Below, one piece after another: positions 3,413 through 14,502 of a stretch of DNA of 32,423 bases. The notes under the pieces are model-generated. The model saw nothing but the letters and a program-made list of their open reading frames with translations. It ran no database searches and had not been told where the DNA came from. The DNA is from Candidatus Buchananbacteria bacterium. Its GTDB lineage: Bacteria > Patescibacteriota > Patescibacteriia > CAIXNZ01. The position numbers were made by a program, and so were the translations under genes. The stretch lies in contig WJKP01000033.1 in the NCBI GenBank assembly GCA_014729025.1, positions 1-32,423 of the forward strand, given 5' to 3'. Numbering within the stretch: position 1 is the stretch's first letter; every line of letters begins with the position of its first letter.

Positions 3413-4138
3413 ATGAATGAAAACATGACACAAACTCCACAAGCAAGTCCTAATCCCCAGGCAGCAGCGCCTATACCTCAAGGTCCTCAGCCTGGCGCAA
3501 CAGCCAGCCAAGTAAAAATTGCCGGGGCTGGCAGAAGGGTGGTCGCTTTTATTTTAGATTCAATTTTTGCTTTTTTGCCATTAGTTGTACTCATGATCCT
3601 TTACTCAATAGTATCTTTTGCTATCGTGCAAACAGTTGGTGCACAGGTCACAACTGACTTTCAAGCCATAGAACTGGCGACCCAGGATGCGCGTTCTACC
3701 ACAGCCGGTGTTATGAATGTGGTAATGGGTTTATTTGGTCTTTTGGGTATAGTTTTGGTTTTTTTATATTTTCCAATAGTTGAGGGTAAATATAGTCGAG
3801 GTCTAGGTAAAAAAATACTAAATTTAAAAATAGTAAAACAAGATAATTTACAAGAGCAAGGTATTGGTTTTTGGATGGCAGCAGCTAGATTATTGGCAAC
3901 TCAATCAGGTAGTGTTTTGGGTTGGATTTGGGCTTTTTTAAATCCGGAACGGCAAGCTTGGCAGGATTTAATTACCAAAACCTATGTTTTATATGATGAA
4001 AATGATTTATTTAATGTTCAAACTATTAATCAAGTTCAAAAACAAGAACCTAAGAAAAATTTGTTTATAATATTATTGGTAATTTTTTTCTTATTGCCTA
4101 TTTTATTATTTATGTTTCCTTTATTTTTAATTTTTTAA
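3413..4138 (+). CDS. RDD family membrane protein
   Basis: AGAGRRVVAFILDSIFAFLPL..., GRKILxLKIVK-like GLGKKILNLKIVKQD, QAWQDLITKTYVL. The ORF-track start at 3347 is probably too early. Confidence 0.8.
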   Translation: MNENMTQTPQASPNPQAAAPIPQGPQPGATASQVKIAGAGRRVVAFILDSIFAFLPLVVLMILYSIVSFAIVQTVGAQVTTDFQAIELATQDARSTTAGVMNVVMGLFGLLGIVLVFLYFPIVEGKYSRGLGKKILNLKIVKQDNLQEQGIGFWMAAARLLATQSGSVLGWIWAFLNPERQAWQDLITKTYVLYDENDLFNVQTINQVQKQEPKKNLFIILLVIFFLLPILLFMFPLFLIF

Positions 4139-4156
4139 TTTAATTAAATATTTATA

Positions 4157-4184
4157 AAAAAACCGCTTTATTAGGCGGTTTTTT
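4157..4184 (+). terminator. Rho-independent terminator AAAACCGC...GCGGTTTTTT
   Basis: GC stem followed by T6 just after the RDD gene. Confidence 0.85.
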
Positions 4185-4186
4185 AC

Positions 4187-4215
4187 TTGACAATTATAAT
4201 TAAATATGTTAGGAT
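4187..4215 (+). promoter_or_regulatory. Promoter for the structured ncRNA: TTGACA (4187-4192), 17 nt, TAGGAT (4210-4215)
   Basis: Perfect -35, 17-nt spacer, 4/6 -10; starts immediately after the RDD terminator. Confidence 0.65.
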
Positions 4216-4221
4216 TTTATA

Positions 4222-4434
4222 TGGATATCAGGGTGACGGCTGCCGGTAACCTCTTGAGGTTAGTGCAGTGATAACACTGCTAGTGGTCTGGACAACCAAA
4301 TTCCTAAGAGACAATTGATCATCCTCCTTTGGTTGGGAGAATCATCAATTGATGCGTAAGCGTGCTCAAAGGAAAGCCTTCCCTGATATCTCCAATACAA
4401 TTTACCGCTCTTGTTTCTGGGAGCGGTTTTTTAT
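4222..4434 (+). ncRNA. Stand-alone, highly structured noncoding RNA with own promoter and terminator (family not assigned)
   Basis: 10-bp closing helix GATATCAGGG(4224-4233)/CCCTGATATC(4381-4390); hairpins TAACC/GGTTA, GCAGTG-ATAA-CACTGC, CAATTGAT..ATCAATTG; pseudoknot-type complementarity CAACCAAA(4293-4300)/TTTGGTTG(4328-4335); no credible ORF; higher GC than the flanks. Confidence 0.8.
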
Positions 4435-4437
4435 TTT
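4404..4437 (+). terminator. Rho-independent terminator ACCGCTC...GAGCGGT + T-run, shared with the 3' end of the convergent DUF305-like gene
   Basis: 7-bp stem followed by TTTTTATTTTT. Confidence 0.85.
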
Positions 4438-4868
4438 TGTAAATATTGTTTCATTAATTCTATTTCTCTGATTTGAGTTTCAATAATTTGGTCAGCTAGT
4501 TCTTTGACTTCCGGATTTTGAATGCTAGCTTCTTGGCTGGTTAAAATAGCTGAAGAATGATGAGGAATCATGGCCTGCATATATTGTTTATCAGCAATAA
4601 AAATTTGTTCGCGTAAAAAGATAACGGTAATTATAAAAACAAGAAGACTGGCAACTAAAATAACAGCGTTTAATTTTTTATTTTTAAACATTTTACGCAT
4701 CAATATCAGCATTAATATGGCCATAGGTGAAACCATTAATAAGGCCATGTATAAACGATTTAAGCTTAAATAAAGATGATCTAAGCTGGCAACATTTAAA
4801 AACATGACACCATACATTATGCAAAAAGAAATAATAAGCATTAATAGAAAAATTTTATAGTTTTTCAT
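4431..4868 (-). CDS. DUF305-like membrane protein
   Basis: N-terminal TM segments and C-terminal MQAMIPHHSSAILTSQEASIQNPEVKELADQIIETQIREIELMKQYL, typical of DUF305. Confidence 0.8.
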   Translation of the reverse strand: MKNYKIFLLMLIISFCIMYGVMFLNVASLDHLYLSLNRLYMALLMVSPMAILMLILMRKMFKNKKLNAVILVASLLVFIITVIFLREQIFIADKQYMQAMIPHHSSAILTSQEASIQNPEVKELADQIIETQIREIELMKQYLQK

Positions 4869-6937: not shown

Positions 6938-6974
6938 TAAAAAAGCCGCCCGTAGCATCATTGGGCGGCTTTTT
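6938..6974. terminator. Bidirectional terminator AAAAAGCCGCCC...GGGCGGCTTTTT
   Basis: 7-bp GC stem with A- and T-runs on both sides. Confidence 0.85.
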
Positions 6975-7058
6975 ACGGAGAGGATCTCTCCTAAGGCAGC
7001 GCTAAGTTGTAAAAATTTTGCTAATAACCATCAGCTGTCGATGGTTGAACTGTTGTTC

Positions 7059-7130
7059 TTATGATTGATCCCCGCTTGTATCTGGATCAATCGCAGGTAA
7101 CCCCCTGATCTTTCCTGCTGGGGAGATAAT
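7059..7130 (-). other. Putative 23-codon ORF with non-canonical ATT start behind the 16S-tail-complementary element
   Basis: AAAGGAGGTGATCCA-ATT: I I S P A G K I R G L P A I D P D T S G D Q S *; no ATG/GTG/TTG at the correct spacing. Confidence 0.2.
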
Positions 7131-7145
7131 TGGATCACCTCCTTT
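7130..7145 (-). promoter_or_regulatory. Extended Shine-Dalgarno: AAAGGAGGTGATCCAA, complementary to the universal 16S rRNA 3' tail over 16 nt
   Basis: The plus strand reads TTGGATCACCTCCTTT, the standard bacterial 16S 3'-terminal sequence. Confidence 0.7.
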
Positions 7146-7215
7146 AGGAAAGTTGCTGGTTGAATTTCAATCGGCCTCCTTTTTTCTTTGATTTTAAGTA
7201 GAGCGCTTTTATCAT
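7144..7215 (-). CDS. Tiny basic ORF, 23 aa: MIKALYLKSKKKGGRLKFNQQLS
   Basis: GAGGAGGT RBS overlapping the stop of the upstream ORF (TGAGGAGGTGTAAATG); stop overlaps the next SD. Confidence 0.4.
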   Translation of the reverse strand: MIKALYLKSKKKGGRLKFNQQLS

Positions 7216-7225
7216 TTACACCTCC

Positions 7226-7333
7226 TCAGTTGGTGTGTTGTGGCTTTTGGGATCTTTTTGTTTTGGCAAAAATAGCCTGGATTTTCATTTGTTGATACCA
7301 AAAAGCCCTTGACTTCAAATGCCCATACCTCAT
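7226..7333 (-). CDS. Tiny basic ORF, 35 aa: MRYGHLKSRAFWYQQMKIQAIFAKTKRSQKPQHTN
   Basis: AAGGAGGT RBS 6 nt upstream of ATG, behind a near-consensus promoter. Confidence 0.45.
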   Translation of the reverse strand: MRYGHLKSRAFWYQQMKIQAIFAKTKRSQKPQHTN

Positions 7334-7367
7334 TAATACCTCCTTCAAGTAAGATTATCTTATTTTT

Positions 7368-7396
7368 ATTTTAATATAATTTAGCTAAGCTTTCAA
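7368..7396 (-). promoter_or_regulatory. Promoter TTGAAA (7396-7391), 17 nt, TAAAAT (7373-7368)
   Basis: Near-consensus hexamers with 17-nt spacing, upstream of the tiny-ORF unit and downstream of ychF. Confidence 0.6.
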
Positions 7397-14022: not shown

Positions 14023-14307
14023 ATGCTTTCAAAAATCCCTTTTGATTTAGACAAAGTAAAAAAAGAAGATGTTGATAAGGAAATTTTAAGATCAGCCATT
14101 ATTGCTGAATTGGACGCAATTAATTTGTATGAACAAATGGCTGATTTGACTGAAAATTCTGACATGAAGAAAATTTTATTGGATGTGGCCAGAGAAGAAA
14201 AAACACATGTTGGTGAATTTCAGTCATTATTGCTGGATTTAGATGATGAACAAGTCGTAGAATTAGAACAAGGCAGAAAAGAAGTTAATGAAGAATTAGG
14301 CAGATAA
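14023..14307 (+). CDS. Encapsulated-ferritin-like (EncFtn/rubrerythrin-like) four-helix protein
   Basis: LRSAIIAELDAINLYEQMADLTENSDMKKILLDVAREEKTHVGEFQSLLLDLDDEQVVELEQGRKEV; closely resembles the N-terminal ferritin-like domain of the P. furiosus encapsulin as recalled. Confidence 0.85.
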   Translation: MLSKIPFDLDKVKKEDVDKEILRSAIIAELDAINLYEQMADLTENSDMKKILLDVAREEKTHVGEFQSLLLDLDDEQVVELEQGRKEVNEELGR

Positions 14308-14310
14308 ATT

Positions 14311-14335
14311 AAAAAAGGGGAGCTTTTGCTCCCCG
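14311..14335 (-). terminator. Terminator GGGGAGC-AAAA-GCTCCCC-TTTTTT (minus strand)
   Basis: 7-bp GC stem with T6 on the minus strand. Confidence 0.8.
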
Positions 14336-14466
14336 AAGCCAATGAGAAAATATTTTTTTGCGCTCCTGGTAAAGGATCCTTGATTTTATTCCGTTTGGGG
14401 GTTGGAGCTGGGCGAGATCGGCCGTCCCGCTAAGTGGTTGGATTTGTTTATTTTCTCATTAGCTTT
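14311..14466 (-). ncRNA. Promoter-to-terminator noncoding RNA, closed by a 17-bp helix (6S-RNA-like overall layout; family not assigned)
   Basis: Minus strand AAGCTAATGAGAAAATA (14465-14449) pairs with TATTTTCTCATTGGCTT (14352-14336), one G-U; TATAAT at 14478-14473 with TTGTCC 18 nt upstream; no convincing ORF. Confidence 0.65.
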
Positions 14467-14472
14467 GAAATT

Positions 14473-14502
14473 ATTATATCATAAATAATCAAAGCTGGAC
14501 AA
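14473..14502 (-). promoter_or_regulatory. Promoter TTGTCC (14502-14497), 18 nt, TATAAT (14478-14473)
   Basis: Consensus -10, 4/6 -35, upstream of the minus-strand ncRNA. Confidence 0.55.

Follow-up and report, generated by a model that had tools for sequence, protein, structure and literature searches.

The window, a stretch of 32,423 nucleotides, is one contig (C21) of a Candidatus Buchananbacteria genome of 1,079,062 bases (G000), and the candidate RNA lies in the spacer between an RDD-family gene and a DUF305 gene (Table 1). Read along the + strand, this spacer holds, in order, a symmetric terminator-like hairpin, a promoter, a 169-nt folded body, and an intrinsic terminator. The first hairpin probably ends the RDD mRNA, and could alternatively end minus-strand transcripts. 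When an exact TTGACA, a −10 element matching at ≥4/6 positions, and a TG before the −10 are all demanded, equally good promoter sites number 69 in 2.16 Mb (both strands of the whole genome). The expected start at ~4223, ~7 nt past the −10, falls on the very base that opens closing helix P1, and the terminator begins 12 nt past that helix. No ORF longer than 46 aa lies inside. Judged from sequence alone, a non-coding transcript is thus enclosed by its own promoter and terminator, as in a stand-alone sRNA gene. The sequence-only reading of this DNA had proposed just such a gene, pointing to a consensus promoter, a terminator, and the lack of an ORF; we recover all three, and promoter, terminator, and fold together support the proposal well. 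RNA polymerase would start near 4223 and stop near 4432, giving an RNA of ~210 nt, and we consider it very probable that the gene is transcribed.

Table 1. Features of the spacer and its flanking genes, with positions in the window
Feature	Position	Strand	Basis or remark
RDD-family gene	3413–4138	+	upstream flank of the spacer
Symmetric terminator-like hairpin (AAAAAACCGC...GCGGTTTTTT)	4156–4186	.	read by eye; absent from the terminator scan's list
Promoter TTGACA-17-TAGGAT, extended −10 TG	4187–4215	+	motif scan; sigma-70-type
Structured RNA body, 169 nt	4223–4391	+	z = −4.8; rank 1 in genome descriptor scan
P1 closing helix, 11 bp	4223–4233/4381–4391	+	pair probability 0.68–1.0 (5′ strand)
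P2, GGCU with AGCC	4238–4241/4375–4378	+	pair probability 0.91–0.97
Hairpin P3, loop CUUG	4247–4262	+	folding prediction
Hairpin P4, loop AUAA	4265–4280	+	folding prediction
Pseudoknot strand CAACCAAA	4293–4300	+	0/1000 shuffles
Large arm P5 (4301–4305/4370–4374, 4308–4310/4365–4367), three-way junction at its end	4301–4374	+	folding prediction
Long hairpin, apical loop 4328–4335 = pseudoknot partner UUUGGUUG	4312–4351	+	folding prediction, pseudoknot test
CCUCCUUU, an exact match to the usual anti-Shine-Dalgarno core	4323–4330	+	sequence; partly within hairpin stem
Hairpin with GUAA (GNRA) tetraloop	4352–4363	+	folding prediction
Intrinsic terminator (4404–4427) and T tract	4404–4437	+	terminator scan
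DUF305 gene	4431–4868	−	downstream flank of the spacer

Genomic setting

Two relatives from the same family (G001 and G002) show rpsF adjoining the methyltransferase gene, with ychF on the other side; close orthologues of the RDD and DUF305 genes were searched there and none was found, nor did synteny reveal an RNA in the equivalent spacer. Because these two genes lack close orthologues while the outer genes stay neighbors, we place the RNA in a lineage-specific block, and the earlier suggestion of collecting homologues from between the RDD and DUF305 genes of related genomes found nothing to collect in these two relatives. The same arrangement would suit a mobile-element remnant or a decaying RNA gene that arrived with the RDD-DUF305 block and has no present function. 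However, the promoter, P1, the pseudoknot, and the terminator are all intact, and decay would erode such parts, making a remnant improbable.

Two other stretches of the window drew attention. On the minus strand, positions 6940–7370 carry a series of short open frames with GGAGG before each and a terminator at the end, which may encode tiny peptides or form a structured leader; AAAGGAGGTGATCC, at 7145–7132, falls within this series. Another candidate for a stand-alone RNA, built to the same plan, occupies 14300–14480, also on the minus strand, with a TGATATAAT promoter, a 17-bp closing helix (14336–14465), a terminator directly after it, and a fold z of −4.7. It belongs to no Rfam family and has no convincing relative in 57 genomes.

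Predicted fold and pseudoknot

The minimum free energy of the body is −63.7 kcal/mol, compared with −44.2 kcal/mol (sd 4.1) in 1000 dinucleotide shuffles, none of which was as stable, and z reaches −4.9 once the terminator region is included. Its GC content, said earlier to exceed that of the surroundings, is indeed 47% vs 29% for the window (top 0.2% among 169-nt windows). A descriptor scan for intergenic RNAs (closing helix ≥8 bp, ~110–270 nt, terminator ≤35 nt away, little ORF overlap) returned 8 matches in the 1.08-Mb host genome, among which the candidate locus ranked first as the most stable per base. As predicted, P1 would clamp the RNA body, from which two small hairpins and a large arm bearing a three-way junction would branch. 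The closing helix drawn from the letters at 4224–4233/4381–4390 is present, with a length of 11 bp rather than 10, and the CTCC/GGAG hairpin and the 8-bp CAATTGAT/ATCAATTG helix prove to be stacked parts of a single arm (4312–4351), as that reading implied.

Eight exact pairs join CAACCAAA to TTTGGTTG (4293–4300 with 4328–4335). Among the dinucleotide shuffles, 0/1000 reach 8 pairs and 1.4% reach 7, and when CAACCAAA/UUUGGUUG pairing is forced, the nested structure loses 3.4 kcal/mol for a duplex worth −7.9 kcal/mol; chance and energy thus both support this crossing, the first of two in the sequence-only reading. Since 4293–4300 lies right next to the arm's base, pairing would require the apical loop to bend back over about one arm length, and the three-way junction (4311/4352) would give it the freedom to do so. 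In the structure we envisage, the large arm folds back and its apical loop would pair with the strand just 5′ of the arm. The second crossing, CTCTT (4251–4255) with AAGAG (4306–4310), finds no support: forcing it breaks two helices, with 7.4 kcal/mol lost and 2.9 gained, and a loop match of at least 5 is expected by chance, appearing in 43% of shuffles. What had been described as a multi-pseudoknot RNA therefore retains one credible pseudoknot.

Single-sequence folding alone has been reviewed as weak evidence (PMC8250186), a caution that lends some weight to a chance fold in a GC-rich spacer. Against this reading stands the combination of z = −4.8, the first rank in the genome, a pseudoknot at P < 0.001, and the placement of promoter and terminator, and we regard chance as very improbable.

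The strand also has to be weighed. The element could belong to the minus strand, either as a DUF305 mRNA 3′ untranslated region reaching the hairpin at 4156–4186 or as a tiny peptide gene, given that the minus strand folds about equally well (−67.3 kcal/mol) and offers a TTG at 4314 with AAAGGAGG 8 nt before it and 28 codons. Yet the promoter scan lists no minus-strand site between 4392 and 4600, just upstream on that strand; the fold is closely flanked, a few bases away on either side, by the + promoter and + terminator; and the GUAA tetraloop exists on the + strand only, all of which makes a minus-strand origin distinctly improbable.

Comparison with known RNAs

At gathering thresholds, cmscan of the whole window found tRNAs alone, and permissive Rfam scans of the locus gave nothing relevant. 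The models for 6S (RF00013), RNase P (RF00010), and SRP (RF00169, RF01854) had no match at the locus, the SRP helix 8 signature had none in a scan of C21, and raiA (RF03072) was absent at the locus even at E ≤ 10. The Rfam search proposed alongside the sequence-only reading thus places no known class here, whether raiA, 6S, RNase P, or tmRNA; the suggested resemblance to raiA finds no backing, and the remark that hallmarks of SRP, tmRNA, and RNase P RNA are lacking is borne out. The RNase P RNA of the genome sits on contig C31 (E = 5e-55) and its tmRNA on contig C2 (ARAGORN). In size, the candidate falls in a range similar to that of RNase P RNA, SRP RNA, and tmRNA. As a separate observation, SRP RNA went undetected in the whole genome with small and large bacterial models, and the large model also failed to detect it in 12 relatives.

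The raiA motif RNA, or ModT, has two pseudoknots and eight helices and comes mostly from Bacillota and Actinomycetota (PMC11706538). The candidate is likewise a stand-alone, structured, pseudoknotted bacterial RNA of ~200 nt, but in contrast to the raiA consensus with its two pseudoknots, only one of the two proposed for the candidate is supported.

The main rival explanation is a protein-bound or RNA-polymerase-bound RNA, 6S-like, that is abundant and works by its fold rather than by base pairing. A whole-genome search detected no 6S RNA, which would leave that role vacant (a divergent 6S elsewhere in the genome, missed by the search, is possible), and the candidate resembles 6S RNA in its similar length, its own promoter, and its clamped 5′ and 3′ parts, with a tidy start and stop and a stable fold. 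Unlike 6S RNA, however, it is predicted to form a branched junction with a pseudoknot instead of one long hairpin interrupted by a central bubble, and together with the missing Rfam match this leads us to consider a 6S-like role unlikely.

Search for homologues

No homologue of the candidate emerged from blastn over 57 genomes, from a single-sequence covariance model run on 286 genomes from the class and 380 from the phylum, or from phages, plasmids, and two viral-contig pattern scans, and in 0.74 Mb of a relative (G005) neither model nor structural descriptor scans gave a convincing analogue. The genomes listed for this search included none of the same genus, and because each search first filters by sequence, a homologue that has diverged strongly may have escaped it. 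Several matches were discarded: blastn gave short hits in relatives (best E 0.004 to 0.02), the one in G001 sitting within a pilin-like reading frame; an 18-mer match in a viral contig looks like part of a coding region; R1 matches in distant genomes, at 15.7 and 12.3 bits, were chance-like; and phage and plasmid matches lay for the most part in the upstream hairpin and around the promoter. A second member of the structured RNA class envisaged for this lineage, which covariation evidence and the name of a class would both require, did not turn up in these searches. The literature search likewise returned no described RNA of comparable sort for the host's group. Since neither a known RNA family nor a relative was found, we regard the locus as an orphan and probably a genuine RNA gene specific to its lineage.

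Possible function

The + strand carries no gene directly 3′ of the candidate, which is therefore not a leader. As no downstream + gene is placed for cis control, a trans-acting RNA is the most likely kind, and on balance we think the candidate probably acts in this way.

The most concrete hypothesis for how it would act involves Shine-Dalgarno sites. The stretch GAUCAUCCUCCUUU (4317–4330) resembles a 16S rRNA 3′ end, and the CCUCCUUU within it complements AAAGGAGG at every base. The genome has 144 copies of AAAGGAGG, 127 of which are followed closely by a possible start codon. The chance expectation for CCUCCUUU is ~0.011 per 169 nt, for a match noticed after the fact. Half of the stretch lies inside a stem, which would hide CCUCCUUU. 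RNAduplex target prediction on gene starts was uninformative, giving long unrealistic duplexes alone.

Several Firmicute sRNAs, for example RsaE and LhrC, pair C-rich motifs with Shine-Dalgarno sequences. The candidate shares with them a C/U-rich stretch complementary to such sequences, but a pseudoknotted hairpin would bury half of its stretch, and its targets are putative. In the proposed mechanism, the CCUCCUUU/UUUGGUUG segment would pair with the AAAGGAGG ribosome-binding sites of some mRNAs and would block their translation while the pseudoknotted hairpin is open. Given the half-hidden stretch and the post hoc nature of the match, we consider this pairing doubtful. Quite improbable is the bolder proposal that the candidate is the first known member of a new structured RNA class confined to a clade of small-genome bacteria, a pseudoknot-gated anti-Shine-Dalgarno mimic in a family whose 16S tail changed from GGAUCACCUCCUUU to GGACCAUCUCCUUU.

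The 16S rRNA 3′ end of the host (G000 contig C4:38092–38109) reads GGACCAUCUCCUUUCU instead of GGAUCACCUCCUUUCU. G001 and G002 have the same variant, in 16S context, and G011 and G015, from other families, keep the usual end. Despite the variant, Shine-Dalgarno sites of the host genome are still mostly AAGGAGG.

Taken as a whole, the reading we prefer, a stand-alone gene for a trans-acting, lineage-specific structured sRNA with putative Shine-Dalgarno pairing as its mechanism, has in our estimate slightly less than an even chance. If the locus is transcribed, this ~1.1-Mb genome has a gene for a structured regulatory RNA, and the clear bounds of the candidate suit it to expression and probing work.
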